DNA of 64,000 nucleotides from Diaphorobacter sp. HDW4B (GTDB lineage: Bacteria; Pseudomonadota; Gammaproteobacteria; Burkholderiales; Burkholderiaceae_C), in contig NZ_CP049905.1 of NCBI RefSeq assembly GCF_011305535.1, positions 3,780,001 to 3,844,000 on the forward strand. The letters run 5' to 3'. How positions within the stretch are numbered: the first letter of the stretch is position 1; each line of letters begins with the position of its first letter. This document shows, one piece after another, positions 5,989 through 20,139 of the stretch. The notes beneath the pieces were generated by a model. That model ran no database searches. It saw only the letters and a list, made by a program, of their open reading frames with translations, and was not told the DNA's origin. The translations under genes and the position numbers were made by a program.

Positions 5989-6879
5989 TCAGACAAATTC
6001 GCCTTGCCTGAGCCATTTGGTGGCGATCCACTTTTCGCCCTCGATCACCGGCGAGCCGCCATGCAGCGTCTTGGTGCTGGTGTGCGGACGGTCGTAGCTG
6101 AAGAACACCGCATTGCCCTGGCGCGGACCGACTTCGAGGTGGATGTCGGGAAACACCGTGCCGCCGCCCTTGGTCGGGTTGTTCAGATAGACCACGAGCG
6201 TGCCGACGCGCTGGCCGCCGCGCTTGATGATGGTGGCGGTGCCGGGTTCGGCCGGGTCGAAATAGTCGTAGTGGGGCTTGTATTCCGCGCCGGGACCATA
6301 GTGCAGGATCTGCAGGCCTTCGCCGTTTTCAAGCGGCCAGTTCACGAGCTTGGCGATGCGGGCTTCGAGCTTCTTGACGATCTCGTTTTCGCCGCGCTGA
6401 AAGAACATGCCTTCGCTGGTGCGGCTGGCGTTGACCTCTTCGCCGCCGGTCTTGGTCTCCACCGTCTTGGAGCGCGCCATGCGGGGTTTGGCTTCGCCGA
6501 TCAGCGTTTCGCATTCCTCGCGCGAGAGCAGGTTGCCGAACAGCACGATGCGCGGATTGGCGATTTCCAGCAGCACTTCCACCTGACGATCACCGACATC
6601 GACGAACAGCGGCGACTCTTCAAGCTGCGGCTCGGGAACCGGGGTGGCTGTGGGCAGACCGTTCTGCACGGCGACCGCGTTGAGATGCTCGCGCAGCACG
6701 ACTTCGAGCGCATCGATGGCGACGTCTTCTTTCCAGCCCGAATCGGTCATCGACTTGAGCAGCGAAGGCGCGGCAAAGCCTGCCTGCGCCTGCGCAATGA
6801 TCCACTGGCGCAACTCGGGCGTGATGGGTTGCTGCTGCTTGGTGGCGACGCGGTTCTGGGTGGTCGAAGTGGAAGGCAT
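5989..6879 (-). CDS. 2OG-Fe(II) oxygenase, prolyl 4-hydroxylase family
   Basis: A 296-residue protein whose C-terminal ~190 residues form a P4Hc double-stranded beta-helix oxygenase. Iron ligands are the His and Asp of KPHYDYFDP and the distal His of TLHGGSPV; the Lys in EKWIATKW should bind 2-oxoglutarate. The N-terminal ~90 residues are helical and not typical of the catalytic fold. Bacterial relatives hydroxylate prolines in proteins (EF-Tu has been reported for one Pseudomonas enzyme); the substrate here is unknown. It lies between yaaA (42 bp) and queF (25 bp) on the same strand. Confidence 0.87.
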
Positions 6880-6921
6880 GGTGCTCGGGTTCCTTCGTCT
6901 TGTGTGTGGCGGTTTACTTCC

Positions 6922-7704
6922 TCAATTCTCCGCGAGCTTGCGGCGAAACACCAGCCGCTCGGGCGAGGAGGATGCAGAGTGCAAAGCATAACCTTCGAGA
7001 TCAAAGGCTTCGAGCTGGTGCGGCGTGGTGACGCGGTTCTCGATGGCGTAACGCGCCATGAGCCCACGTGCGCGCTTGGCGTAGAAGCTGATGATCTTGT
7101 ACTGGCCGCTCTTGAAGTCCTCGAACACGCATTCGATCACACGGGCCTTGAGGGTCTTCAGATCCACCGACTTGAAATATTCCTGCGACGCCAGATTGAC
7201 CACGACGGGCGTGGTGTCGGCCTGCAGCCGCTTGTTCAGGTACTCGGCGATGCGCTTGCCCCAGAACTTGTAGAGCGTGCCACCGGCGCTGGTTTCAAGG
7301 CGTGTGCCCATTTCGAGACGATAAGGCTGCATGCGGTCCAGTGGGCGCAGAACGCCGTACAGGCCGCTCAGAATCGCCACATGGTCCTGTGCCCAGGTCA
7401 GTTCATCGGCAGACAGCTTTTGCGCTTGCAGGCCCTCGTACACATCGCCGTTGAATGCCATCACGGCCTGACGCGAATTCTTGGCCGTGAACTTGGGACT
7501 CCAGGCCGCGTAACGCGCCACGTTCAGACCGGCGAGCGTGTCGCTGATGCTCATGAGCGACGCGATTTCCTGCGGCGACTTCTGCTTGAGCACGTCGATC
7601 AGCTTTTGTGAATCGGGCACGAACTGCGGTTGGGTGTGTGCGAGTTCGGGCGGCAGCGGCGTGTCGTAATCCAGCGACTTGGCGGGGGAGAGGAGAAACA
7701 GCAT
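6922..7704 (-). CDS. yaaA: Peroxide stress protein YaaA
   Basis: A 260-residue YaaA/DUF328 protein. The N-terminus [13 protein letters not shown] and the internal [10 protein letters not shown] and [13 protein letters not shown] blocks are diagnostic. In E. coli, YaaA limits intracellular free iron and so Fenton damage during peroxide stress. The length fits the family (about 258). It is downstream of rne on the same strand, but a strong terminator hairpin lies between them, so it probably has its own promoter in the 180-bp gap. The sequence alone says nothing about OxyR control. Confidence 0.93.
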
Positions 7705-7795
7705 GGCTGCATTTTCGCCTGCAATTGGATTTCGTCACGGCACGACAGGTTGATTCCCTGATCGAGGCATTGCAGCGCGATTTGCACGCACCATG

Positions 7796-7832
7796 AAAAA
7801 CACCCCGACATGCCGCAAGGCGTTCGGGGTGT
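7796..7832 (-). terminator. rne terminator
   Basis: Read on the minus strand, ACACCCCGA and TCGGGGTGT form a 9-bp stem followed directly by a T5 run. It is a standard intrinsic terminator 52 bp past the rne stop codon. Confidence 0.88.
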
Positions 7833-7883
7833 CTGGCTTTGGACCGCCCGGATTGATTGGTTCCGGGCTTCAGCGAGCGCTTT

Positions 7884-10800
7884 TTACTGCTGCTGTTGTT
7901 GCTGTTCCTGATCGAACGGCAGGCGCATTTCGCTCAGGTCGCGGCGGGTTTCGACCAGCACCAGCGGGCCTTCGTCGGTCACCACGACCGGAGGACGCTC
8001 GCGCGGCACATGCACCGGCTTGGGTTCGGCAGCGATGGCGGCCTGGACGGTTGCGATCTTGTCCGCGTCGGAGTTCACCCACTGCAGGCCCGAAGCGCTT
8101 GCCAGATCGTTCAGCGACTGCATCGGCAGTTGGTAGCTGCCAATGCGCGGCATGCCGACTTCCTGAGCCACTTCTGCGACCACATTGACGACCTTGGCGA
8201 CCACCACAGGCTGCGCGGCCGGAACCACGATGGCTTCTGCGGATGGCGAGACCACGATGGTGGCTGGCGCGGCTTCCTGCACGGGAGCCGGTGCTGCCAC
8301 CGGTGCGGCTGCAGGTGCTGGAGCGGCAACAGGCGCAGGCTCGGCTGCCACTGCCGCGACCGTGGTGGTGGTCTGCGAGAAGTAGCTGCGGCGTGCGGGC
8401 TCTTCAGACGACGTGGAGGCGTCGGACGCAACCACGGTTTCCGTCGACGTCGCGGCGATCACCGCATTGTCTTGCGTGTCGGATGCGGGTGCTCCTGCGT
8501 CGGTGCCACCTTCGGCACCACCGTTGTTGCGACCGCGACGATCACGGCCATAACGGTCGCGTGAGCGGCGCTCGCGGCGCTCGCCGTCGGCAGCCGGAGT
8601 CGTCGACGTGCCTTCTGCGTTGACGTCGGCTGCACCGCTGTTCAGCGACAAGTCGATGTCGGGCATGGGCAGCAGCAACGACTGGGCGTCCGCCACAGGT
8701 GCTGCGGCGTTGGCGTCGATGGTGCGCGGAGCGCGTTCGCCGCGTTCACGGCGCTCGCCACGTTGGCCGCGTTCTCCGCGGTCACCACCTCGTTCGCCAC
8801 CACGATCACCGCGCTCGCCACGTTCACGACGTGGGCGATCTCCGCTCATTGCGGATGCGTCGTCCTGCGCAGCGCCTGTCGAGGCGTCCATGGCGGGGTT
8901 CGCATTGCGTTGCTCGTTGTTGTTGCGGTCACGGCCGTTGCGTGGTTCGCGGCGGTTTTCGCCTTCTGGGCGCTCGCTGCGTTCACCACCGCGCTCGTTG
9001 CGGCGGTCGTTGTTGCGACCTTCGCTGCCTTCGCGTGGCTGACGGGGCTCGCCGTTGGCGTTGCGATCATTGCGGCGACCGTTGCGGCCTTCGTTGCGCG
9101 ATTCGCCGTTGGCGGCCTCGTTGCGGTTGCCATCGCGGCCACCTTCACGATTTCCGTCGCGGTTGCCATCACGGTTGCCGTTGCGCTCGCCACCACGGCG
9201 GCGGTCGTTGTTGCCACGGCCTTCACGGCGCGGTTCGCGGCCTTCGGCGGCTGGTGCGGGGGCTGCCACCGGTGCGGGAGCTGCCACGGGCGCTGGGGCC
9301 GGGCCAAAGCCGAACAGGCTCTTGATCCAAGCGATGAAGCCCATTTCCTGCGGACGTGCAGGCGCTGCCGGAGCGGGCGTGGGCGCTGGAGCCGGTGCGG
9401 CAGGTGCGCCTGTGCCAGCGCTGGTGCGTTGCTGCTGACCGTTGGCGCGGGCTGCGGCGCGAGCGGCTGCGTCGGGGCGTGGCTCGACCTGCGGAGCGGG
9501 TGCATCGGGCAGCACGCCCTTGATGACAGGAGTCTGCTTGTTGGTCGGCTCCTGCGAGCGACGTGTCACCTTGGTCTGGTCTTCGACTTCTTCGGCGAGC
9601 TGGTAGCTCGACTGCAGGTCTTCCAGACGCGGGTCGTCGTGCTTCAGGCGTTCGAGCTTGTAGTGCGGCGTTTCGAGCGACTTGTTCGGAATCATCAGCA
9701 CGTTCACGCGCTGCTTGAGTTCGATCTTGGCGATTTCGGTGCGCTTTTCGTTGAGCAGGAACGAGGCCACTTCCACCGGCACCTGGCAGTGCACGGCGGC
9801 GGTGTTGTCCTTCATGGACTCTTCCTGGATGATGCGCAGGATCTGCAGCGCCGAGCTTTCCGTGTCGCGGATGTGGCCGGAGCCGCCGCAGCGTGGGCAG
9901 TTGATGTGCGCACCTTCGGACAGCGCGGGCTTCAGGCGCTGACGGCTCATTTCCATCAGACCGAACTTGCTGATCGAGCCGAACTGCACGCGGGCGCGGT
10001 CCTGGCGCAGCGCGTCGCGCAGGCGGTTTTCCACTTCGCGGCGATTCTTCGACTCTTCCATGTCGATGAAGTCGATCACGATCAGGCCGCCCAGATCGCG
10101 CAGGCGCATCTGGCGGGCCACTTCGTCGGCGGCTTCGAGGTTGGTGCGGGTGGCGGTCTCTTCGATGTCGCCGCCCTTGATGGCGCGGGCCGAGTTCACG
10201 TCCACCGACACCAGCGCTTCGGTGTGGTCGATCACGATGGCGCCGCCGGAAGGCAGGGTCACCACGCGCGAGTAGGCCGATTCGATCTGGTGCTCGATCT
10301 GGAAGCGGCTGAACAGCGGCGCGTCATCGCGGTAGCGCTTGACCTTGTTCGCGTGCTCGGGCATCACGTGCGCCATGAACTGGTGAGCCTGCTCGAAGAT
10401 GTCGTCCGTGTCGATCAGGATGTCGCCGATGTCGCCGTTGAAATAGTCGCGGATCGCGCGGATCACAAGGCTCGATTCCTGATAGATCAGGAACGCGCCA
10501 CGGCCCGACTTGGCAGCGCCGTCGATGGCGGTCCACAGCTTGAGCAGGTAGTTCAGGTCCCACTGCAGTTCGGGCGCAGTGCGGCCGATGCCGGCGGTGC
10601 GCGCGATGATGGACATGCCCTTGGGGTACTCGAGCTGGTCCATCGCCTCCTTGAGTTCGGCGCGGTCTTCGCCCTCGATGCGGCGCGAGACGCCACCGCC
10701 ACGGGGGTTGTTGGGCATCAGCACGACGTAGCGGCCCGCCAGCGAGATGAAGGTGGTGAGAGCCGCGCCCTTGTTGCCGCGTTCTTCCTTTTCGACCTGA

Positions 10801-11102
10801 ACGATCAGTTCCTGGCCTTCACGGATCACGTCCTGGATCTTGGCCTGGCTGGGCGAGACGCCTTCGGCGAAATATTGCTTGGAGATTTCCTTGAAGGGCA
10901 GGAAGCCGTGGCGGTCTTCGCCGTAGTCCACAAAACAGGCTTCCAGCGAGGGCTCCACGCGGGTCACGACCGCCTTGTAGATGTTGCCCTTGCGTTGTTC
11001 GCGTCCCTCGATCTCGATTTCGTAGTCCAGCAGCTTCTGGCCGTCGACGATGGCCAAGCGGCGTTCTTCGGGCTGCGTGGCGTTGATGAGCATCCGTTTC
11101 AT
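7884..11102 (-). CDS. rne: Ribonuclease E
   Basis: A 1072-residue endoribonuclease that initiates mRNA decay and matures rRNA and tRNA at the membrane-associated degradosome. The N-terminal half is canonical: S1 domain (about 36-120), catalytic Asp301 (VSVDVNSARA) and Asp344 (LIVIDFID), and the zinc-link CPRCGGSGH at 402-410. After about residue 520 it is disordered, with Pro/Ala runs, a long Arg/Gly/Asn/Glu-rich stretch with short repeats of the GERGERGG type, then a Pro/Ala/Val region. These are the expected RNA- and partner-binding tails. I chose the ATG giving MKRMLINATQ, with AAGGAAA upstream. A group II intron lies about 600 bp upstream in the same orientation. Confidence 0.96.
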   Translation of the reverse strand: MKRMLINATQPEERRLAIVDGQKLLDYEIEIEGREQRKGNIYKAVVTRVEPSLEACFVDYGEDRHGFLPFKEISKQYFAEGVSPSQAKIQDVIREGQELIVQVEKEERGNKGAALTTFISLAGRYVVLMPNNPRGGGVSRRIEGEDRAELKEAMDQLEYPKGMSIIARTAGIGRTAPELQWDLNYLLKLWTAIDGAAKSGRGAFLIYQESSLVIRAIRDYFNGDIGDILIDTDDIFEQAHQFMAHVMPEHANKVKRYRDDAPLFSRFQIEHQIESAYSRVVTLPSGGAIVIDHTEALVSVDVNSARAIKGGDIEETATRTNLEAADEVARQMRLRDLGGLIVIDFIDMEESKNRREVENRLRDALRQDRARVQFGSISKFGLMEMSRQRLKPALSEGAHINCPRCGGSGHIRDTESSALQILRIIQEESMKDNTAAVHCQVPVEVASFLLNEKRTEIAKIELKQRVNVLMIPNKSLETPHYKLERLKHDDPRLEDLQSSYQLAEEVEDQTKVTRRSQEPTNKQTPVIKGVLPDAPAPQVEPRPDAAARAAARANGQQQRTSAGTGAPAAPAPAPTPAPAAPARPQEMGFIAWIKSLFGFGPAPAPVAAPAPVAAPAPAAEGREPRREGRGNNDRRRGGERNGNRDGNRDGNREGGRDGNRNEAANGESRNEGRNGRRNDRNANGEPRQPREGSEGRNNDRRNERGGERSERPEGENRREPRNGRDRNNNEQRNANPAMDASTGAAQDDASAMSGDRPRRERGERGDRGGERGGDRGERGQRGERRERGERAPRTIDANAAAPVADAQSLLLPMPDIDLSLNSGAADVNAEGTSTTPAADGERRERRSRDRYGRDRRGRNNGGAEGGTDAGAPASDTQDNAVIAATSTETVVASDASTSSEEPARRSYFSQTTTTVAAVAAEPAPVAAPAPAAAPVAAPAPVQEAAPATIVVSPSAEAIVVPAAQPVVVAKVVNVVAEVAQEVGMPRIGSYQLPMQSLNDLASASGLQWVNSDADKIATVQAAIAAEPKPVHVPRERPPVVVTDEGPLVLVETRRDLSEMRLPFDQEQQQQQQ

Positions 11103-11702
11103 GATGCGTTTCCTTCTCGTTGTTGTATGCGGGCCGACGCGCTGCGTGATCGCAAGCTGCTCGCCCCGCCAAAGTTCCATGACAAAAACAGGCTCACTCA
11201 AGGAGCCGCCAATGCCTGGCCAACGCAGAGAAACGAAAGGAATTGCCGAAGTTCTACGGCCGACGCGTCAAAGTGGTATCAATGACTGGCGCGTCGGGCG
11301 CAAAGGGGGGGCATGGATGAAGGCGAAGCGGAACGCGCGCTGCTTTACCGTGAAGAAAACAGCCTTGGGCACGATCCGAATGAAAGATTGCGGCGCAGGC
11401 AACGCCACTGCCAAAGGCTTGAACCTTTGACTCAGTGACATGATCCAGGCCGTCAAAATCCACATATTTGTTATCGCTTTGTCCGCTGGTCACCGCGCCT
11501 CACAATATCCAGGCCGGGACCAACTCAGATTCCGTATTCAGTGTTTCAATGTGTTAGCCACTGACATCCAACGGGTTTTAAACGGGCAATCGCCAACAAT
11601 TTTTACGCGTAGGACGCCTATGGGCATCAACCATACTGCGCGACTCACTGGGCTGGGTGGACTAAACTCCAGACAAATCAACCACTTACACATTCGTCGC
11701 GC
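11103..11702 (-). other. Upstream region / probable 5' leader of rne
   Basis: A 600-bp stretch without a convincing gene between rne and the 3' end of the intron. RNase E genes in other bacteria have long, structured leaders used for autoregulation (well established in E. coli), so part of this is probably leader RNA. One clear hairpin is listed separately. I could not identify a strong sigma-70 promoter; a TTGATG-N18-GTAAAA pair near 11,620 is only weak. Open frames on both strands here lack start signals. Confidence 0.5.
11406..11437 (-). promoter_or_regulatory. Two-part hairpin in the rne leader region
   Basis: On the minus strand CACTG..CAAAGG-TTCAAG-CCTTTG..CAGTG folds as a 6-bp apical stem with a 6-base loop, a small internal loop, and a 5-bp lower stem. 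It lies about 300 bases before the rne start codon. By analogy with the rne leader hairpins of E. coli it could be an RNase E autoregulatory element, but no sequence identity is claimed. Confidence 0.4.
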
Positions 11703-11742
11703 AGGCGGGTAGGGACAGTTCATTGCTGAACCATCCCCCCCT
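11703..11742 (-). ncRNA. Group II intron domain VI with branch-point adenosine
   Basis: On the minus strand GGGGGGATGGTTCA pairs with TGAACTGTCCC around a GCAA tetraloop. The next A (complement of 11710) is bulged before CCC, as expected for the lariat branch point. Confidence 0.75.
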
Positions 11743-11744
11743 TA

Positions 11745-11778
11745 GAACCGGACTTGCGACTTTCACCGCATCCGGCTC
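11745..11778 (-). ncRNA. Group II intron domain V (catalytic)
   Basis: Exactly 34 nt. It starts GAGCCGGATGCGG, has the GAAA tetraloop, and ends CGCAAGTCCGGTTC. This is the most conserved part of group II ribozymes and has the expected size, stem and loop. Confidence 0.92.
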
Positions 11779-11835
11779 AAGCACAACATGTCCAACCTCA
11801 TTGGGACATTCTATGTCAAGATTTGAAAGTTGAAC

Positions 11836-13539
11836 TCAGGGCTTCTTTCTAGAGGCCGGTTTCGCTACGTGTAGGCCTAAGGCATGCACTCTTACGTGAC
11901 AAGCCGGATGCAAAAGCACCCGATTTGAAAGGGCTTCTGACCCGCCGTGCACCTTGTGAACAAGGTGATGTTCGTGCCATCCGCTGTCATAGTCCAGAGG
12001 TTCCGTACACAAGGCGCAGTGCCCTGCTTGGGATACATACAGTTGCACGGTTTCGGCCTTATGCGCGATGCTCTTGAGCATACGTTTCGTCCTCAACTGT
12101 TCTCCATACACCTCCCACGATGGATCAAACGGGTTGTAGCCCCCTTTGATCTTCTCGTGTCTCACGATCTCTGTCTCGGCAAGCCTCAACAGTTTGACCG
12201 GGAAGGGACCATCCTCCGTCCGTATAGTTGCAGCAAACTCATCCCGGTCCCTGATGCTTTGCCAGTAACGGCTTTTGCACCAAGGGCGGGGTTTATTCGG
12301 ATGCCGCCTTCTCGCCCAGCGCACGAGTCGCCAGTAAATCAGGTGGTCCATCCGATTGAAGGTTTCTTTCGCCACCACCGGGCGGTGGTACTGCGCCCAG
12401 CCCCGAAGGACTGGGTTGAGTAGAGCGATGAGATCTTCCTGCTTCACTGATGAATGCGTTTTGACGATCTCCCTGACCTTGCGGTAGAACGCTTGCACAT
12501 TCTTTTTGCTCGGTTTGATGAGTAACTTCCCGTTGTATTTGCGGAAGTTCCATCCCAAGAAATCGAAGCCTTTGTCGATGTGTATGACTTTCGTCTTTTC
12601 CAGCGATAGTCGCAGACCCCGTTGTGCGAGGAACGCTTCTACCCATGGCCTGATTTCTTCTTCCAGAAGCTCTTGAGAGCAACCGGTGATGACAAAATCG
12701 TCGGCGTACCGGATCACATTGACTTTGAGCCCTTTGAGCTTTGACTTCCCGTGCTGCGCCACCAAGTGCGCCATCAGGTCGGTTTCCAGCCCGTTCAAAC
12801 ACATATTCGCCAAGGTTGGCGAGATGATTCCGCCTTGCGGCGTTCCTTCATCGGTCGGCGACAGGCGGCCCTTGTGGACCACTCCGGCTTTCAACCACTT
12901 TCGCAGGATCGTCTTGTTCATGGGAACATGACTCACCAGCCATTCGTGATTGATGTGATCGAAACAACCTTGAATATCCGCCTCCAGCACCCATCGAGCC
13001 GAGACCCGCTGGGAAGTGCAGACGAATATTTGTCCCATGGCGTCTGCCGTTGAGCGGTTTCTCCTGAAGCCGTAGCTGTTCGGATCGCTCGTGGTTTCTG
13101 CCACTGGTTCAAGCCCCAATAAGTGCAGAGCCTGCATTGCCCGGTCGAACATGGTCGGGATGCCCAGAGGGCGTTCCTTTCCGTTCGCTTTGGGGATGTA
13201 GACCCGCCTTAGCGGAAGAGGTCTGTAGCCTCTTTGCTGCTTCAATCTATCAGTCGCCGCCCGTTTCAGGGCAGGAGTTTCCCAAAGCTGGCGGTCGACC
13301 CCTGCCGTTCGCTTGCCTTGGTTTTCAGTCACTCGCCTCACTGCCAGAGCTCTGGCAGAAAAGGAGTGGTTCAAAGACCGTTGCAAGGCTTTCACCCTGC
13401 GCCAATCTTTTTCCAGCGTAGCCTTCGCTATACGTTGCTGAGTCGTTCGCACGAACTGCTCGACTCGATGCCAATCAATGGCATGCCAGTCTTGCGGCTC
13501 GCGTGAGGACGCAGAACCACCGGAGGTGATTTTTCTCAT
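11836..13539 (-). CDS. ltrA: Group II intron reverse transcriptase/maturase with HNH endonuclease domain
   Basis: A 567-residue intron-encoded protein. RT blocks are visible in order: KERPLGIPTMFDR (121-133), EADIQGCFDHI (186-196), EGTPQGGIISP (231-241) and the catalytic RYADD (277-281). The maturase (thumb, domain X) region follows, with RPVVAKETFNRMDH and GGYNPFDP. The C-terminal ~50 residues are an HNH endonuclease with two Cys-x-x-Cys-type sites (CALCTEPLD) and HEHH...HPACH. The start is the ATG at MRKITSGGSA, behind GAAAGAGGAAAG; an upstream ATG adds 21 residues. No frameshift is seen, so the protein looks functional for splicing and retrohoming. Codon use and GC are lower than in the neighbours, as expected for a mobile gene. 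Confidence 0.95.
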   Translation of the reverse strand: MRKITSGGSASSREPQDWHAIDWHRVEQFVRTTQQRIAKATLEKDWRRVKALQRSLNHSFSARALAVRRVTENQGKRTAGVDRQLWETPALKRAATDRLKQQRGYRPLPLRRVYIPKANGKERPLGIPTMFDRAMQALHLLGLEPVAETTSDPNSYGFRRNRSTADAMGQIFVCTSQRVSARWVLEADIQGCFDHINHEWLVSHVPMNKTILRKWLKAGVVHKGRLSPTDEGTPQGGIISPTLANMCLNGLETDLMAHLVAQHGKSKLKGLKVNVIRYADDFVITGCSQELLEEEIRPWVEAFLAQRGLRLSLEKTKVIHIDKGFDFLGWNFRKYNGKLLIKPSKKNVQAFYRKVREIVKTHSSVKQEDLIALLNPVLRGWAQYHRPVVAKETFNRMDHLIYWRLVRWARRRHPNKPRPWCKSRYWQSIRDRDEFAATIRTEDGPFPVKLLRLAETEIVRHEKIKGGYNPFDPSWEVYGEQLRTKRMLKSIAHKAETVQLYVSQAGHCALCTEPLDYDSGWHEHHLVHKVHGGSEALSNRVLLHPACHVRVHALGLHVAKPASRKKP

Positions 13540-14140
13540 GCTTTCCTCTTTCCGGGTTAACCCCTTCGGAAGACGCACTTCTCCCCCGAAGGGATGAAGC
13601 ACATCCCTTCGGGGCGGTTTGAACTATTGCAGTCGTCAACGACGGTTGCACCAAGTGGAAGTGGGCACGCTTTCACGTCAGGGCAAATCTTGAACCCCTA
13701 TGCCGCCGATTACAGGTAGCCATTCGCTTTTTCCACGATCCCATACCCCCTCATCCAACAGGTTGCCTTGCGGCTTCCCTGCCCGCGCGTTTACACACGC
13801 TGGCGAATAGTGGGGCTTACCACGTTCCCTGATCTGCCGACATGGACGATTCCCATCGCTACATGTCTATCCGGTTAGGACTCATCTTTCCTGGAGTTGC
13901 GATGTGACGACGTGTGTGAATTCACCACTCACACAGCCTGCAACGTACCTTTTGGTTATGGCCTATCAGCAGATTTGGCCATTCAATGTTTACCCAGGTT
14001 CGGGCGATGATTCACTTTACGTTGTCCATTTGGAACTAGCCTGGCACCTCGACCGCCTTTCTGCTGGCAGTGTCCAAACCTCATCTTGCGAGTGAGGTTC
14101 ACCGCTTTCGCGGGGTTACGTTGTCAGGTGAGCTTCACAC

Positions 14141-14611
14141 AACTGCATTGCTGCTGCTGCATGCCACCGTAGGCTACTCATGGTCGTACATGAGGTCGCA
14201 GCGGCCCATTGCTGGGTGTGCGACAAGGCAGATCAGAGCTTACGCTCTGCGGAATACTGATCAATTGATTGTCAAGTTTGTACACGCAAGACGATTCCAC
14301 ACCGCATCAGGGATGTAGTTGTTGGATTCATCGGATTTCATCAGTTAGCTACGTGTGGTAGCTGTCTTTGAAGCGTTCACCATGTTTATCTACGGATTGC
14401 GTAGAGCCATGGCGAAGCAAGGCAGCCCTGTAGGAACTACCAAGCAGACTAGAATGACCAGCATGCTGGTATTCAATGACGGATGTCGAAAATGCCGAAG
14501 CGATTAAACGACAGATTGAAAAGTATGTACCCTAAGCCGTCTCCTTTGGAGAGAACAGCCGTTCGGTTGTCAAGGGTTGAACCGACGCAGAGCGACACTG
14601 CGTGTCGCACG
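14141..14611. other. Unexplained spacer upstream of rluC
   Basis: A 470-bp, comparatively AT-rich region between the intron 5' end and rluC. It holds a perfect 14-bp palindrome ACCAGCATGCTGGT (14457-14470), a CAGAGC/GCTCTG hairpin near 14,240, and presumably the rluC promoter and possibly the rne promoter on the other strand. A plus-strand open frame beginning at 14483 runs into rluC but its first 43 residues do not resemble RluC proteins. I see no tRNA or other gene. Confidence 0.4.
14592..14608 (+). promoter_or_regulatory. Hairpin immediately before the proposed rluC start
   Basis: GCGACAC-TGC-GTGTCGC is a perfect 7-bp stem with a 3-base loop, ending three bases before the GTG start. It occupies the position where the ribosome binding site should be, so it may restrict initiation or indicate a different start. 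Confidence 0.5.
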
Positions 14612-15637
14612 GTGAAACACATTATAGAGGGCAAACCGGCAAAACAGGCCGCCCCAATAGCCACATCGGCAGTACGCATCGTTGAAGTCGATGCGGAATA
14701 TGCCGGTCAACGCCTGGATAACTTTCTGATACGCCAGCTCAAAGGCGTTCCCAAAACCCTTGTCTACCGCATCATTCGCAGTGGCGAAGTGCGGGTGAAC
14801 AAGGGGCGCGCGAGCGCAGATACCCGGGTCGAAGCAGGGGACCTGGTGCGCGTGCCGCCCGTTCGGGTTTCCGAAAAAATCGCCGAGAAGGCCGAACGCC
14901 CCGCGCCACCTAGGGAATTTCCTGCGTTGCTGGAAGACGACCAGATCATCGCCATCGACAAGCCGGCCGGCGTGGCCGTGCATGGCGGCAGCGGCGTGAG
15001 CTTCGGCGTGATCGAGCAGCTTCGGCAGGCGCGGCCCACGGCCAAGTTTCTGGAACTGGTGCACCGGCTCGACCGCGAAACCTCGGGCATTCTGCTGGTC
15101 GCCAAGCGGCGCTCGGCGCTCGTGGCGCTGCAGGACCAGTTCCGCGAGCGCGAGACCGGCAAGACCTATCTGGCGCTGGTGACCGGCGCCTGGCCGGCCA
15201 AGCTCAAGGTGATCGACACGCCGCTGCACAAATATCTGCAGGAAGACGGCGAGCGCCGCGTGCGCACCACCACCAAGGAAGACCCGGACGGCATGCGCTC
15301 GATCACGCTGGTGAAGGTTCGCTCGACCTACGCGCCGCGTCCCATGCAGGGGCTGCCCGCGATGAGTCTGCTCGAAGTCACCATCAAGACCGGACGCACG
15401 CACCAGATCCGTGTGCATCTCTCTAGTCAGGGCCACCCGATTGCGGGCGACGACAAGTACGGCGACTTCGATCTGAACAAGCGGCTGCAGAAGCAGGGGC
15501 TCAAACGCATGTTTCTTCATGCATGGCGGCTACAGTTCAATCACCCGGCGACCAGCGAGCGGTGCGAGCTGCGTGCCGAGTTGCCACCCGAACTGGCCGA
15601 TTTTCTGAGTACCGAACCTGCTTCCTCCAATGTCTGA
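14612..15637 (+). CDS. rluC: 23S rRNA pseudouridine synthase, RluC/RluA family
   Basis: A 341-residue enzyme converting uridines in 23S rRNA (positions 955, 2504 and 2580 in E. coli) to pseudouridine. An N-terminal S4 RNA-binding domain (AGQRLDNFLIRQLKG onward) precedes the catalytic domain with HRLDRETSGI, whose Asp is the nucleophile, and a C-terminal GRTHQIRVHL motif. The adjacent divergent rne gene is the usual neighbour. The start is uncertain: I chose GTG (VKHIIEGKP) because homologues begin near this block; an ATG at 14483 would add 43 atypical residues. The next gene overlaps its end by 8 bp. Confidence 0.9.
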   Translation: MKHIIEGKPAKQAAPIATSAVRIVEVDAEYAGQRLDNFLIRQLKGVPKTLVYRIIRSGEVRVNKGRASADTRVEAGDLVRVPPVRVSEKIAEKAERPAPPREFPALLEDDQIIAIDKPAGVAVHGGSGVSFGVIEQLRQARPTAKFLELVHRLDRETSGILLVAKRRSALVALQDQFRERETGKTYLALVTGAWPAKLKVIDTPLHKYLQEDGERRVRTTTKEDPDGMRSITLVKVRSTYAPRPMQGLPAMSLLEVTIKTGRTHQIRVHLSSQGHPIAGDDKYGDFDLNKRLQKQGLKRMFLHAWRLQFNHPATSERCELRAELPPELADFLSTEPASSNV

Positions 15638-16298
15638 ACCACATCACCGACGCTTTGACCTGATCGCCTTCGACTGGGATGGCACGCTGTACGACTCCAC
15701 CGCCTGCATCGTGCGGAGCATTCAGGAGGCTGTTCGCGACGTGGGCGGCACCGTGCCCAGCGACGAGGATGCCGCCTGGGTGATCGGCATGGCGCTGGAG
15801 CCTGCGCTTGCCAAGGCGGCGCCCGACGTGCCGCCCGAGAAATACCCCGAGCTGAGCAATCGCTACCGTTATCACTACCTCCAGCACCACGACGACCTGA
15901 ACCTGTTCGACGGCGTGATGCCCATGCTCGACGACCTGCGCCAACGCGGCTATCTGCTGGCGGTGGCCACCGGCAAGAGCCGCCGTGGGCTCGATCACGT
16001 ACTGGATTCCAAGGAACTGCACGGCGTGTTCGACGGCTCGCGCACGGCCGACGAAACGGCGGGCAAGCCGCATCCGCAGATGCTCAATGAGCTGATGGAG
16101 CAATGGGGGATCGAGCCCGAACGCACGCTGATGATCGGCGACACCACGCACGACCTGCAAATGGCCGTGCTGGCTGGTTGTGCGAGCGTCGGCGTGGCCT
16201 ACGGCGCGCACGACACAGACGGCTTTGCCGAGTTCCATCCGCTGTATGTGGCCGAAACTGTTGCTAATTTGCATCAGTGGTTGTTGAACAATGCGTGA
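15630..16298 (+). CDS. HAD-IA family phosphatase (phosphoglycolate phosphatase-like)
   Basis: A 222-residue haloacid-dehalogenase hydrolase. Motif I is FDWDGTLYDS (nucleophile and general acid Asp), motif II lies in VATGKSRRGL, the conserved Lys in AGKPHPQML, and motif III/IV in MIGDTTHDL. A helical cap lies between motifs I and II, as in Gph-type enzymes. Gph-like proteins remove phosphate from 2-phosphoglycolate or similar small phosphates; the exact substrate is not readable here. It overlaps rluC and precedes the Rieske gene by 18 bp, suggesting one operon. Confidence 0.87.
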   Translation: MSEPHHRRFDLIAFDWDGTLYDSTACIVRSIQEAVRDVGGTVPSDEDAAWVIGMALEPALAKAAPDVPPEKYPELSNRYRYHYLQHHDDLNLFDGVMPMLDDLRQRGYLLAVATGKSRRGLDHVLDSKELHGVFDGSRTADETAGKPHPQMLNELMEQWGIEPERTLMIGDTTHDLQMAVLAGCASVGVAYGAHDTDGFAEFHPLYVAETVANLHQWLLNNA

Positions 16299-16316
16299 CC
16301 AAACGGTGACTACAGC

Positions 16317-16697
16317 ATGAACACAACTGAAGGCAATTCCAGCATCGAACTTTGCGCCAGCACAGAGCTGGCGGATGGCGGGCGCGCTGTTTCGTTCGAT
16401 GTGCGCTTTGCGGGCGAAAACTGCCGCGCGTTCGCGATCCGCTTCGAGGGCCGGGTGCACGCTTTTCTCAACCGCTGCACGCATGTCCCCATGGAAATGG
16501 ACTACCAGCCGGATCAGTTTTTCGACGACACTGGCCAATGGCTGCTGTGCGCAACCCATGGCGCGGCCTATCGGCCCGACACGGGCGAGTGCGGCGGCGG
16601 CCCGTGCCGTGGCGGCCTGGTGAAGATCCCTCTCAGCGAGGCGGAGGGCATTGTCCGCTGGCACACCGCAGATAACTTGCAACCAGTAGAGTTTTGA
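16317..16697 (+). CDS. Rieske [2Fe-2S] domain protein
   Basis: A 126-residue stand-alone Rieske protein. The two cluster-binding motifs are C-T-H (RCTHVPMEMD) and C-x-x-H (LLCATHGAAYRPDTG), giving the expected two Cys and two His. No oxygenase or membrane part is present, so it is a soluble ferredoxin-like electron carrier or a regulatory or assembly factor. It is four bases upstream of the S49 peptidase gene and downstream of the HAD gene on the same strand. The electron partner is unknown. Confidence 0.88.
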   Translation: MNTTEGNSSIELCASTELADGGRAVSFDVRFAGENCRAFAIRFEGRVHAFLNRCTHVPMEMDYQPDQFFDDTGQWLLCATHGAAYRPDTGECGGGPCRGGLVKIPLSEAEGIVRWHTADNLQPVEF

Positions 16698-16700
16698 CAG

Positions 16701-17756
16701 ATGACTGATCCCACGCGTCCTGATTCCCCCGGGTCACAGAGCTCCGAGCCTGCCGCCCCGGATCTGTGGGGCAGTCCAGAGCCCGCCAGCAAACCCGCAT
16801 CTGCCAAGGCCGCGCCCGCATCCGGCGCGCCGGGATGGGAGCGCGATGTGCTTGAAAAGCTGGTTTTCTCCACGCTCAAGGAGCAGCGCTCGGCCCGCCG
16901 CTGGCGCAACTTCATGCGACTGGCCTGGCTGCTGGTGATCACCACCATCGCGGTGATCCTGTTCTCCAAGGAAACCAGCTCCACCAGCAAGACCACGCCC
17001 CACACGGCGGTGGTCGACATCAAGGGCGAGATTGCCGCGGGCAACGAAGCCAGCGCCGAATTCGTCGTCGCCGCCATGCGCAGCGCGTTTGAGGACTCGG
17101 GCGCGCAGGCCGTTGTGCTGCTGATCAATTCGCCGGGCGGCAGCCCCGTGCAGGCGGGCATCATCAACGACGAAATCGTGCGCCTGAAGGCCAAGCACAA
17201 GAAGCCGGTCTACGCGGTGGTCGAGGAAACCTGCGCGTCCGCTGCGTACTACATCGCTGCTGCGGCTGATGAGATCTATGTGGACAAGGCCAGCATCGTC
17301 GGCAGCATCGGCGTGCTGATGGATGGCTTTGGCTTCACCGGCACCATGGAAAAGCTGGGCGTCGAGCGCCGTCTGCTCACTGCTGGCGAGAACAAGGGCT
17401 TTCTTGACCCATTCAGCCCACAGACCGAGCACCAGCGCGAATATGCGCAGCAGATGCTCAACCAGATCCACCAGCAGTTCATCACGGTCGTGAAGGCCGG
17501 TCGCGGTGATCGCCTCAAGGAAACGCCTGATACCTTCAGCGGCCTGTTCTGGACGGGCCAGCAAGCCGTCGAAATGGGCTTGGCCGACAAGATGGGCAAT
17601 CTCGACTACGTCGCCCGCGAAGTGGTCAAGGCTGAGGAAGTGGTGGACTACACCCGCAAGGACAATGTGGCCGAACGACTGGTCAAGCGCTTTGGTGCGG
17701 CGATGGGCGCGGGCGCGGCCAAGGCGCTGCAATCGTCGTCATTGCAACTGCGCTGA
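16701..17756 (+). CDS. sppA: S49 family signal-peptide-peptidase-like serine protease (SppA type)
   Basis: A 351-residue inner-membrane protease. A soluble, Pro/Ala-rich N-terminus is followed by one membrane segment (about residues 72-90, LAWLLVITTIAVILF) and an S49 protease domain. The catalytic Ser lies in ETCASAAYYIAAAAD and the likely catalytic Lys in GENKGFLDPFSP, the B. subtilis SppA pattern for the short, single-domain form. SppA enzymes degrade cleaved signal peptides. It ends with a long, perfect terminator hairpin, closing the rluC-HAD-Rieske-sppA group. Confidence 0.88.
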   Translation: MTDPTRPDSPGSQSSEPAAPDLWGSPEPASKPASAKAAPASGAPGWERDVLEKLVFSTLKEQRSARRWRNFMRLAWLLVITTIAVILFSKETSSTSKTTPHTAVVDIKGEIAAGNEASAEFVVAAMRSAFEDSGAQAVVLLINSPGGSPVQAGIINDEIVRLKAKHKKPVYAVVEETCASAAYYIAAAADEIYVDKASIVGSIGVLMDGFGFTGTMEKLGVERRLLTAGENKGFLDPFSPQTEHQREYAQQMLNQIHQQFITVVKAGRGDRLKETPDTFSGLFWTGQQAVEMGLADKMGNLDYVAREVVKAEEVVDYTRKDNVAERLVKRFGAAMGAGAAKALQSSSLQLR

Positions 17757-17774
17757 AATATTTCGCTGAAAACA

Positions 17775-17810
17775 AAAAACGGCGCGGCCTTCAAAGGCCG
17801 CGCCGTTTTT
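17775..17810. terminator. Strong bidirectional terminator (sppA / rsmI-like)
   Basis: AAAAACGGCGCGGCCTT and AAGGCCGCGCCGTTTTT are perfect complements, giving a very GC-rich stem flanked by A5 and T5. It lies between convergent genes and should stop transcription in both directions. Confidence 0.93.
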
Positions 17811-17835
17811 CATTGGGTTGGATTGATTTGCCGGA

Positions 17836-18624
17836 TCAGGTGCCGATCAGAAACACCGTTGGCGTGCGGTTGTCCACCGGGCAGGCCAGATTGCGCCACT
17901 GGTTGACCGCGCGGCTCTGGATGTTGGCGGTCTCCAGCGTCAATCCGCTGGCGATGGCCAGACGGGTGTTGGGCTGCAGTCCTTGCAGCAGCGCCTGCCA
18001 GATGGCGGCATTGCGGTAGGGCGTTTCGATGAAAAGTTGGCTTTGGCTGTGCTTGACGGCCAGCGTCTCCAAGTCTTTCAGTCGCTTGGCGCGCTCGGCG
18101 TTGTCCTGCGGCAGATAGCCGACGAAGGCAAAGTTCTGGCCGTTCAAGCCGCTGGCGGCAATCGCGAGCAACAGTGAAACCGGGCCCACCAAAGGCACGA
18201 CCTTGATGCCCAGATCATGCGCCGAGCGCACCACGGAGCTGCCGGGGTCGGCCACGGCGGGCATGCCGGCTTCGCTGATCAGGCCGATGTCGCTGCCCGA
18301 GAGCGCGGCGGCCAGCAGCGGCTTGGCATCCCATTGCGCGCTGCCTTTTGCGCCGTGATCGCCTTTTTTGTGCACTTCGCGCGGCAGCTCGGTGATCTGC
18401 TGCTCCTGCAGTGGAGCGGCCAGCGGGAGCAGGGCGTCGATGCGCTTCAGATACGCGCGGGTGCTTTTGGCGTTTTCGCAGATCCAGTGGGTGAGTTTTG
18501 ACGCCGTCAACAACGTGCCTTGCGGCAGTACGGATTCGAGCGAGGCCTGAATGTCGCAGCCGAAATCAAGCGGTGCAGGAACGAGATACAGCGTGCCTTT
18601 GACGGATTGGCTTTGCGAACTCAT
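17836..18624 (-). CDS. SAM-dependent methyltransferase, RsmI/tetrapyrrole-methylase superfamily
   Basis: A 262-residue protein of the COG0313 type. The N-terminus GTLYLVPAPLDFG and the central IGLISEAGMPAVADPGS and VPLVGPVSLLLAIAASGL blocks match RsmI-like methyltransferases. Canonical RsmI 2'-O-methylates C1402 of 16S rRNA, but this protein has a longer, divergent middle (residues 50-95) and resembles the second paralogue seen in Burkholderiales, so I do not name it rsmI. Its ATG overlaps the maf stop codon (ATGA), indicating translational coupling. Confidence 0.8.
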   Translation of the reverse strand: MSSQSQSVKGTLYLVPAPLDFGCDIQASLESVLPQGTLLTASKLTHWICENAKSTRAYLKRIDALLPLAAPLQEQQITELPREVHKKGDHGAKGSAQWDAKPLLAAALSGSDIGLISEAGMPAVADPGSSVVRSAHDLGIKVVPLVGPVSLLLAIAASGLNGQNFAFVGYLPQDNAERAKRLKDLETLAVKHSQSQLFIETPYRNAAIWQALLQGLQPNTRLAIASGLTLETANIQSRAVNQWRNLACPVDNRTPTVFLIGT

Positions 18625-19220
18625 GGCAGCATCAATCCGGCGGCGCGCAGCATCTGGCAAGTGCGGATCAGCGGCAGGCCGATGAGCGCGGTGGGGTCGT
18701 CGCTTTCGATGGCGTCGAGCAGCGAAATGCCGAGGCCTTCGCTCTTGGCGCTGCCCGCGCAGTCATACGGCTCCTCGGCGCGCAGATAGCGCTCGATTTC
18801 CGCATCGCTCAGGTCACGAAAGCGCACATGCACCGGCGCGAGATCGACCTGGCTGAAACCGGTTTCAAGGCAGACCACCGACACGGCGGTGTGAAATACC
18901 ATGGCGTGGCCGCGCATTTCCTGCAGTTGCTCGGTGGCGCGCTCGTGATTCCCGGGTTTGCTGAGGGGTTTGCCGTTCAGGTCCGGTACCTGGTCCGAGC
19001 CGATCACGATGGCATGGGGGAATTGTTCGGCCACGGCGCGGGCCTTGGCGGATGCCAGGCGCAGCGCGAGCTCGCGCGGGGCTTCGCCGGGCAGTGGGGT
19101 TTCGTCGACATGCGGAGCCGACACATCGAACGGCAGGCGCAGGCGCTCCAGCAACTCGCGGCGGTAACGCGATGTGGAGCCCAAAATCAAGGGGCGGGGC
19201 ATGGAAGTGGATTGCTGCAT
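18621..19220 (-). CDS. maf: Maf-family nucleoside triphosphate pyrophosphatase (YceF-like)
   Basis: A 199-residue Maf protein (house-cleaning pyrophosphatase for modified nucleotides; the YceF group prefers m7GTP). Motifs: LILGSTSRYRRELLERL near the N-terminus, VDETPLPGE, IGSDQVPDLNGKPLSKPG, and the C-terminal CAGSAKSEGLGI and GLPLIRTCQML. The close match to E. coli YceF across these blocks supports the YceF subgroup. A second ATG six codons in would give the usual N-terminus. Its start lies only 25 bp from the divergent yceD start, so the promoters must lie inside the coding sequences. Confidence 0.9.
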   Translation of the reverse strand: MQQSTSMPRPLILGSTSRYRRELLERLRLPFDVSAPHVDETPLPGEAPRELALRLASAKARAVAEQFPHAIVIGSDQVPDLNGKPLSKPGNHERATEQLQEMRGHAMVFHTAVSVVCLETGFSQVDLAPVHVRFRDLSDAEIERYLRAEEPYDCAGSAKSEGLGISLLDAIESDDPTALIGLPLIRTCQMLRAAGLMLP

Positions 19221-19245
19221 GCCCCGATTCTCTTACACTGCTTGC

Positions 19246-19797
19246 ATGACCAAGGAACACTCCCCCGATCGGCTGGACATCAAGGCCTTTGCACAGGCTG
19301 GTGGACATCTGTCCGGCCACGACTCACTGCTCAAGTACAAGCGTCTCGCGGAGGAAGCCAAGGGCCTGCATCCCGATCTGCTGGTGGATTGGCAGGCTGA
19401 CGGTGAAGTCCGCACCGTGGCAGGGCTGGGAGCGCAGATCTGGCTCAAGCTCAAGGTGCATGCGACCGTGCCCATGCAGTGCCAGCGCTGCCTCGGAACG
19501 GCCGATGTGCCCCTCGACATTGATCGGGAATTCCGCTTTGTGGCGGATGAAGCCACGGCGGAAGCGCTCGACGACGAGTGCGACGAAGACCTGCTGGCGC
19601 TGAGCCGCGAATTCAATCTGCGCCAGCTCATCGAGGATGAGCTGCTGCTGGAGCTGCCCGTGGTGCCGCGCCACGACGAATGCCCGACACAGGTGGAAAT
19701 GAGCTCGTCCGACGACGACTTCGAAGAAGCCAACGAGCAGAAACCCAACCCGTTCGCGGCGTTGGCGGGCCTGCGCAAGGACGACAAGAAGTCCTGA
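19246..19797 (+). CDS. yceD: YceD/DUF177 family protein (23S rRNA accumulation protein)
   Basis: A 183-residue DUF177 protein, normally encoded just before rpmF, as here. A conserved CQRCLGTADVPLDID block and an acidic C-terminal half are typical. Homologues in E. coli and plants affect 23S rRNA accumulation; the biochemical role is not settled. I chose the ATG giving MTKEHSPDRLDIKAF; longer starts would overlap maf. It lies 159 bp upstream of rpmF, with a separate promoter in the gap. Confidence 0.88.
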   Translation: MTKEHSPDRLDIKAFAQAGGHLSGHDSLLKYKRLAEEAKGLHPDLLVDWQADGEVRTVAGLGAQIWLKLKVHATVPMQCQRCLGTADVPLDIDREFRFVADEATAEALDDECDEDLLALSREFNLRQLIEDELLLELPVVPRHDECPTQVEMSSSDDDFEEANEQKPNPFAALAGLRKDDKKS

Positions 19798-19843
19798 TCC
19801 GTTTGATTTCGGTGCCTGAATGGCGCTTTCTCAAGAGCAGTAT

Positions 19844-19872
19844 TTGAGTGCCCAAATCATTTCCGCTATAAT
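19844..19872 (+). promoter_or_regulatory. Sigma-70 promoter for rpmF-plsX-fab operon
   Basis: TTGAGT (19844-19849) and a perfect TATAAT (19867-19872) are separated by exactly 17 bp. It is the best promoter match I found in the window and lies 85 bp before the rpmF start. Confidence 0.85.
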
Positions 19873-19956
19873 CAATGGTTTCGCGCGAAATCCCCTCGTG
19901 TCTTTAATGGGCTGATCGCGTTTTTTACCAACCCTTTTCAGACCCTAGGAGCCATC

Positions 19957-20139
19957 ATGGCTGTTCAGCAAAACAAGAAGTCCCCCTCCAAGCGCGGTAT
20001 GCACCGTTCGCACAATGCCCTGACTACACCGGGCACTGCCGTGGAACCTACCACCGGCGAAACACATCTGCGTCACCACATCAGCCCCAACGGTTTCTAC
20101 CGCGGCCGTCAGGTGCTGAAGAACAAGTCTGAAGCCTGA
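19957..20139 (+). CDS. rpmF: 50S ribosomal protein L32
   Basis: A 60-residue L32. It begins [19 protein letters not shown] and ends with the [12 protein letters not shown] block expected of proteobacterial L32. It contains no cysteine, so it is the zinc-free form. AGGAG is placed just upstream of the ATG. It is the first gene of a fatty-acid synthesis operon, an arrangement conserved from E. coli to Burkholderiales. Confidence 0.97.

Follow-up and report, generated by a model that had tools for sequence, protein, structure and literature searches.

Group II introns of the CL1 (IIB1) type that carry a large 5′ insertion were reportedly treated by Michel et al. in 2007 (Biochimie 89:542-553), as cited in PMC4028801 and PMC4465626. 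In the accessible portions of PMC4028801 and PMC4465626, a CL1/IIB1 subset with a long 5′ insertion is known, and a CL1/IIB1 member is found at the groEL stop codon. EcI5 and TeI4h encode proteins related to the one described here; according to the accessible text of PMC2882425, the EcI5 protein recognises A-15, upstream of IBS2, and that of TeI4h, which sits in a tRNA-Ile gene, recognises both A-15 and C-16. As far as the consulted sections of a 2015 review go (PMC4424553), bacterial group II introns have three target types, namely homing sites, terminators and attC; class C (IIC) introns use terminators or attC and do so without En. No report of promoter-targeting group II introns was found in the openly licensed literature, a body of work that does not reach Michel et al. 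2007.

The intron upstream of rne in Diaphorobacter sp. HDW4B is a known kind of element whose target habit appears to be new. It resembles the CL1/IIB1 introns with a 5′ insertion in having a large stretch of about 340 nt of fast-changing sequence near its start and an HNH-bearing protein; however, most members of the lineage counted here are at −10 boxes rather than at a stop codon. L043, the one with a groEL-like stop at its site, is placed apart from the promoter clade by a quick tree that has open forks. The lineage has T-16 where the TeI4h protein recognises C-16. Like class C introns it targets an expression signal and not one gene, but the intron at rne carries an HNH domain and its 5′ exon ends in TATAAT-N10, with no terminator-like site listed nearby on the minus strand.

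Within the window (the whole 64,000 nt stretch of DNA that was analysed), the element upstream of rne is, on its sequence, a genuine and complete group II intron on the minus strand, codirectional with rne (Table 1). The initial annotation had placed a group II intron in the sense orientation here, with a full RT-maturase-HNH protein and a 34-nt domain V, and each of these is borne out by Rfam and Pfam profile matches, including one of 60.5 bits to domains V-VI (RF00029, 11780-11704) and the RVT_N, RVT_1, GIIM and HNH domains of the intron-encoded protein (IEP), which is encoded in domain IV, retains YADD and matches TIGR04416 with 380 bits. The GTGCG at 14610 is a GUGYG-type 5′ end. The branch-point A of that annotation corresponds to a candidate A in domain VI, chosen from the nucleotide sequence only, and a CTACCC near the 3′ end is conserved in relatives. 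The best solved-structure match of the protein is 6me0_C (E 9e-172), which we take to be the TeI4h intron of Thermosynechococcus. A DNA search finds a single copy of the intron in its own genome.

The limits first given for the intron, 11703-14140 (2,438 nt), required correction. The annotation had proposed a comparison with close relatives, and the rne-rluC spacers of all five congeners (L143-L147) prove to be empty sites that join window position 11703 straight to 14611; the intron therefore runs from 14610 to 11704 on the minus strand and spans 2,907 nt, which puts the earlier 5′ end 470 nt off and the earlier 3′ end 1 nt off. The same join is seen in three more genera (L148-L150) among the matches listed. 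The intron begins with GTGCGACACG and ends with CTACCCGCC, and both ends are common to relatives. A 5′ end at 14140 is ruled out by these empty sites, by the Rfam domain I match and by homology to other introns; the position lies inside domain I, since the Rfam match begins at 14195 and homology to other introns, those of Comamonas and Acidovorax among them, stops only near 14250. Past the terminal hairpin, the sequence from 14590 to 14252 has no clear counterpart in relatives; the segment 14613-14250 folds with z −3.54.

Table 1. Features of the intron-bearing rne locus, in positions of the 64,000 nt window
Feature	Position	Strand	Basis
Complete group II intron, 2,907 nt	11704..14610	-	Empty sites in five congeners; ends shared with relatives
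Predicted rne −10 box (TATAAT) within the 5′ exon	14621..14626	-	Identical in 15 aligned relatives
IBS1 (TTCACC), 5′ exon −6 to −1	14611..14616	-	6/6 pairing with EBS1
IBS2 core (AATGT, exon −13 to −9), overlapping the −10 box	14619..14623	-	Watson-Crick pairing with EBS2; covariation
Predicted transcription start, 7th-8th nt after the box	14613..14614	-	Inferred from spacing
Fast-changing ~340-nt stretch inserted close to the intron start	14252..14590	-	No clear homology except terminal hairpin
Domain I core (RF02012)	14045..14195	-	113.9 bits, E 7e-24
EBS2 (ACATTG)	13984..13989	-	Covariation with exon
EBS1 (GGTGAA)	13921..13926	-	Covariation with exon −6 to −1, z 12.4
Intron-encoded protein, 588 aa, RVT_N, RVT_1 (YADD), GIIM, HNH	11836..13602	-	Pfam, TIGR04416
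Domain V, 34 nt	11745..11778	-	Rfam alignment
Domain VI, candidate branch A at 11710	11704..11743	-	RF00029; conserved CTACCC
Native rne leader (3′ exon), ~600 nt, conserved blocks	11103..11703	-	Alignment with 15 relatives
rne (RNase E)	7884..11102	-	Pfam RNase_E_G, 331 bits

The 5′ exon at rne reads CTATAATGTGTTTCACC and is followed by the GTGCGAC of the intron, which starts 10 nt after a TATAAT that is identical in all 15 aligned spacers of relatives; these are 15 of 20 fetched spacers, with L156, L158, L159, L160 and L162 left out. Both CTATAATGT and TTCAC are invariant in this alignment, and the ~60 nt downstream of the junction are well conserved; upstream of the box ~13 nt are moderately conserved, after which conservation drops until the coding part of rluC. 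Two of the five unaligned spacers (L159 and L162) carry TATAATGT..TTCACC, which was not seen in the other three (L156, L158 and L160). As the intron starts 10 nt past a conserved −10 box, the predicted rne promoter lies upstream of it, and this is most likely where the rne promoter is; if transcription starts 7-8 nt past the box, the intron is predicted to begin at about +4 or +5 and would thus be nearly the first part of the rne transcript. No −35 hexamer is evident at rne, and no minus-strand terminator-like site is listed near 14611.

It is doubtful that the intron is neutral for rne owing to another promoter in the 600-nt leader or in the intron's 3′ end: a consensus promoter scan of 11100-14760 gave no promoter-like site and the invariant TATAAT of the aligned spacers is upstream of the intron, although such a scan would miss −10-only promoters and the leader has conserved blocks of its own. 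Two of these blocks, at 11640-11703 and 11225-11251 in the native rne leader of relatives, are without an Rfam match and represent a possible undescribed rne leader element; a search of window positions 6000-20000 for a known rne leader element gave no Rfam match at E ≤ 0.1.

The initial annotation had left open on which side of the intron the rne promoter lies, and had reasoned that an upstream promoter would make splicing necessary for a normal rne leader. The conserved TATAAT favours the upstream side; the need for splicing is weakened, as the predicted transcript from this promoter holds only 3-4 nt of 5′ exon and so includes IBS1 in part and IBS2 not at all, which makes normal splicing from it doubtful. 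The rne coding region begins ~600 nt past the intron, so that unspliced mRNA could still be translated, and translation of rne could be independent of splicing. E. coli RNase E is autoregulated, and the sense position of the intron in the leader of a self-regulating gene speaks for a reading in which the intron has been drawn into rne control, the RNase E level being set by how efficiently it is spliced or by RNase E cleavage of the leader that carries it; this is nonetheless very unlikely, as the intron is absent from five congeners and the same lineage occurs at many unrelated genes, so that nothing is special to rne. On the other side of the site, the divergent rluC is deprived of its native upstream sequence, a candidate GTG start (14612) lying one base from the intron site. 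In the stretch 14483-14612 the reading frame of rluC now begins inside the intron, at ATG 14483, and most protein matches in relatives begin near codon 38.

The insertion sites of the lineage point to a habit that extends well past rne. The 5′ ends of relatives were placed at GTGCGAC-type starts, near-identical sites were removed, and loci were retained at an IEP identity of at least 53.5%, a cut chosen after the data were seen; loci without a resolved 5′ end were dropped, including 7 of 56 in the later set and many distant ones in the earlier set. The 92 resolved sites yield 55 distinct ones, the 70% identity rule having also merged L234 and L259 with L020. TAnnnT starts 14-18 nt before the 5′ splice site in 39 of 41 distinct sites of the first set. 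The later set, collected once the promoter idea existed, comes from one further genus, in which 27 of 60 genomes carry the intron in up to six copies, and from a class sample with 3 positives among 369, and it omits one place, G1208:C2; the 49 of its 56 places with a resolved 5′ end form 17 site clusters, four of which repeat earlier sites (three from one earlier set, one from another), and the box is present in 16 of the 17.

When pooled, 51/55 distinct sites have TAnnnT starting at −18 to −14, compared with 1.6% expected from each site's upstream flank. The spacing from box to splice site is 10 nt in 33 sites, 11 nt in eight, 9 nt in seven and 12 nt in three; the hexamer is an exact TATAAT in 15, matches at five positions in 26 and at four positions in 10. 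Hexamers of the −35 type show no enrichment in the first set, where 513 of 2,000 random draws did as well, and only slight enrichment in the enlarged set (44/2,000), which speaks against promoters as targets; L041 and L043 were left out of the first −10/−35 test and are both scored as misses in the later box counts. The frequency and register of the box support the view that the intron is a complete retro-intron whose lineage quite likely homes to sigma70-type −10 boxes and inserts 9-12 nt beyond them, in the sense orientation, which would be near +3 to +5 of the host transcript. Intron-free promoters of pyrG (9 genomes) and guaB (10 genomes) retain TATAAT or TACAAT among the matches listed, and the joined intron flanks align to them (the pyrG alignment is without L192).

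There is no box at 4/55 sites (L041, L043, L032 and L238), the first three of which look like stop-codon insertions. In Xenorhabdus, L032 and L035 are apparently inserted at or next to a stop codon, the L032 junction being TATTTATAA|GTGCGACG; both lie inside the clade of the promoter group, so the specificity would either not be absolute or have been lost there. The window itself has TCTCTTACACT-N6-ATG at 19229-19248, at a yceD-like gene; this resembles the ATG-type 5′ exons at yceD-like genes (L027, L125) and is likely an empty homing site.

Genes downstream of the introns were called by codon-position GC at the 45 of 55 sites with a resolved 3′ end, three of which gave no downstream call; there is none at L216. 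Downstream, the gene called first has the sense orientation at 40/42 sites; upstream, the closest call shares the strand at 17/40. Two downstream genes were called antisense: at L007, where a sense tRNA-Leu precedes the called gene, and at L026, where the sense frame joined at the ATG stays open over 247 codons and is without a Pfam match. Pfam gives a family match at E ≤ 0.001 for 39 of 40 submitted downstream proteins; two of these matches (EamA at L264 and YceD at L125) fall under the cut-off that Pfam itself sets. The families comprise CTP synthase, IMP dehydrogenase, S15 (twice), L31, LptA, LptD N-terminal, BamE, phosphatidylserine decarboxylase, DapA-type, LipB-type, FtsY-type, SecB, DarP, RibF-type (twice), ornithine carbamoyltransferase, polyprenyl synthase, ErpA-type, RpiA and glutamyl-tRNA synthetase-type proteins, and others; host genes include pyrG, guaB, rpsO, ftsY, secB, gltX and tRNA genes, the short names being read from family plus sequence. 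The intron of L007 ends 6 nt before tRNA-Leu and that of L009 2 nt before tRNA-Tyr, gaps too short to accommodate a promoter ahead of the tRNA. The called start is more than 100 nt away at L127, L175, L222, L223 and in the window. A sub-lineage inserts right after an ATG; the box-to-ATG distance is six nt in 8/10 such loci, and in 7/9 with a resolved 3′ end the frame that continues from the joined ATG has more than 100 open codons, which suggests that these are leaderless genes.

Base pairing through EBS1 and EBS2 tracks the variable bases of the exon. At rne, EBS1 pairs with IBS1 throughout, and EBS2 pairs with IBS2 through five Watson-Crick pairs and one G-U. Across 22 introns, 98% of exon positions −6 to −1 are paired with EBS1 as compared to 48% with exons shuffled among introns (z 12.4), and 82% of positions −14 to −9 are paired with EBS2 as compared to 59% when shuffled (z ~8). 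Positions −13, −12, −10, −9 and all of −6 to −1 beat every one of 500 shuffles; position −11 is paired in 18/22 introns, without informative variation, and −14 (14/22), −15 (5/22) and −16 (12/22) are paired at the shuffled level. T-16 and A-15 are nevertheless among the most conserved exon bases, at 38/55 sites each; since their pairing with the intron does not rise above chance, it is probably the intron protein that reads this TA of the −10 box, in line with the recognition of A-15 by the related TeI4h and EcI5 proteins. In promoter coordinates the unwound target would then lie between roughly −9 and +4.

The sequence of events may be pictured as follows: the protein would read T-16 and A-15, the first two bases of the box, and open the DNA there, after which EBS2 and EBS1 would pair with the opened strand. 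The opened stretch, about −9 to +4, would be nearly that of a transcription bubble, and the strand entered would be the non-template strand. In the window, transcription from the host promoter would then take in the intron practically from its 5′ end and run on through the ~600-nt leader into rne, with rne being expressed from precursor or spliced RNA; the intron would gain a conserved promoter ahead of a gene that the host can hardly lose.

Ordinary site-specific homing is a competing account, in which a preference of the protein and EBS2 for an A/T-rich TA...T sequence is combined with survival mainly at harmless places just upstream of genes and the likeness to a −10 box is a by-product. 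It agrees with the weak −35 signal, with the coverage of part of the box by EBS2 and with the preference of related IEPs for A or A/T at −13 to −16 given in the accessible text of PMC2882425. Survival alone, however, does not account for the 9-12 nt register, and it leaves unexplained the sense bias downstream as opposed to upstream, the insertions in tRNA leaders and the recurrent six-nt spacing at ATG-type loci; this account is considered unlikely. Homing to −10 boxes remains the preferred reading, and a further step, in which the RNP invades the non-template strand of the open bubble, homes to active promoters as such, and the introns are spliced from 5′ exons of 3-5 nt, is tentative and at present rather doubtful. 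Copies of IBS1 within the 5′ insertion, as a replacement for the missing exon, find no support: six are found in 22 introns, 3.2 are expected, and 104 of 1,000 shuffles are as good.

If bubble invasion is true, the protein would read the same −10 bases as sigma while EBS2 and EBS1 would pair with the stretch melted by the polymerase. Promoters of housekeeping genes would be a fourth target type for bacterial group II introns; targeting them would explain how the introns live beside indispensable genes, as a conserved promoter is taken and coding sequence is mostly left unbroken. A further puzzle is how an intron could splice when its 5′ exon measures only 3-5 nt, and such insertion is a possible tool for marking promoters.

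Several relatives have unusual arrangements. Related introns split a tRNA-Gly(CCC) gene after the anticodon at L132 (279-3170), L133, L138 and L177; at L132 an intact tRNA-Gly(CCC) lies ~830 nt into the intron (1110-1183), as if a replacement had been brought along, and the introns of L133, L138 and L177 also contain a tRNA-Gly(CCC) according to ARAGORN. CP075775.1 (L206 1-2837), a 2,837-bp circular Pseudomonas aeruginosa 'plasmid', is exactly one intron of the lineage, from GTGCGAC to CTACCCGAC, with no flanks; it is probably a collapsed assembly repeat, and possibly an intron circle. The intron of L069 is 3,366 nt long with its homology in pieces, and that of L010 has ~500 extra nt between the protein and domain V; both likely hold nested insertions.
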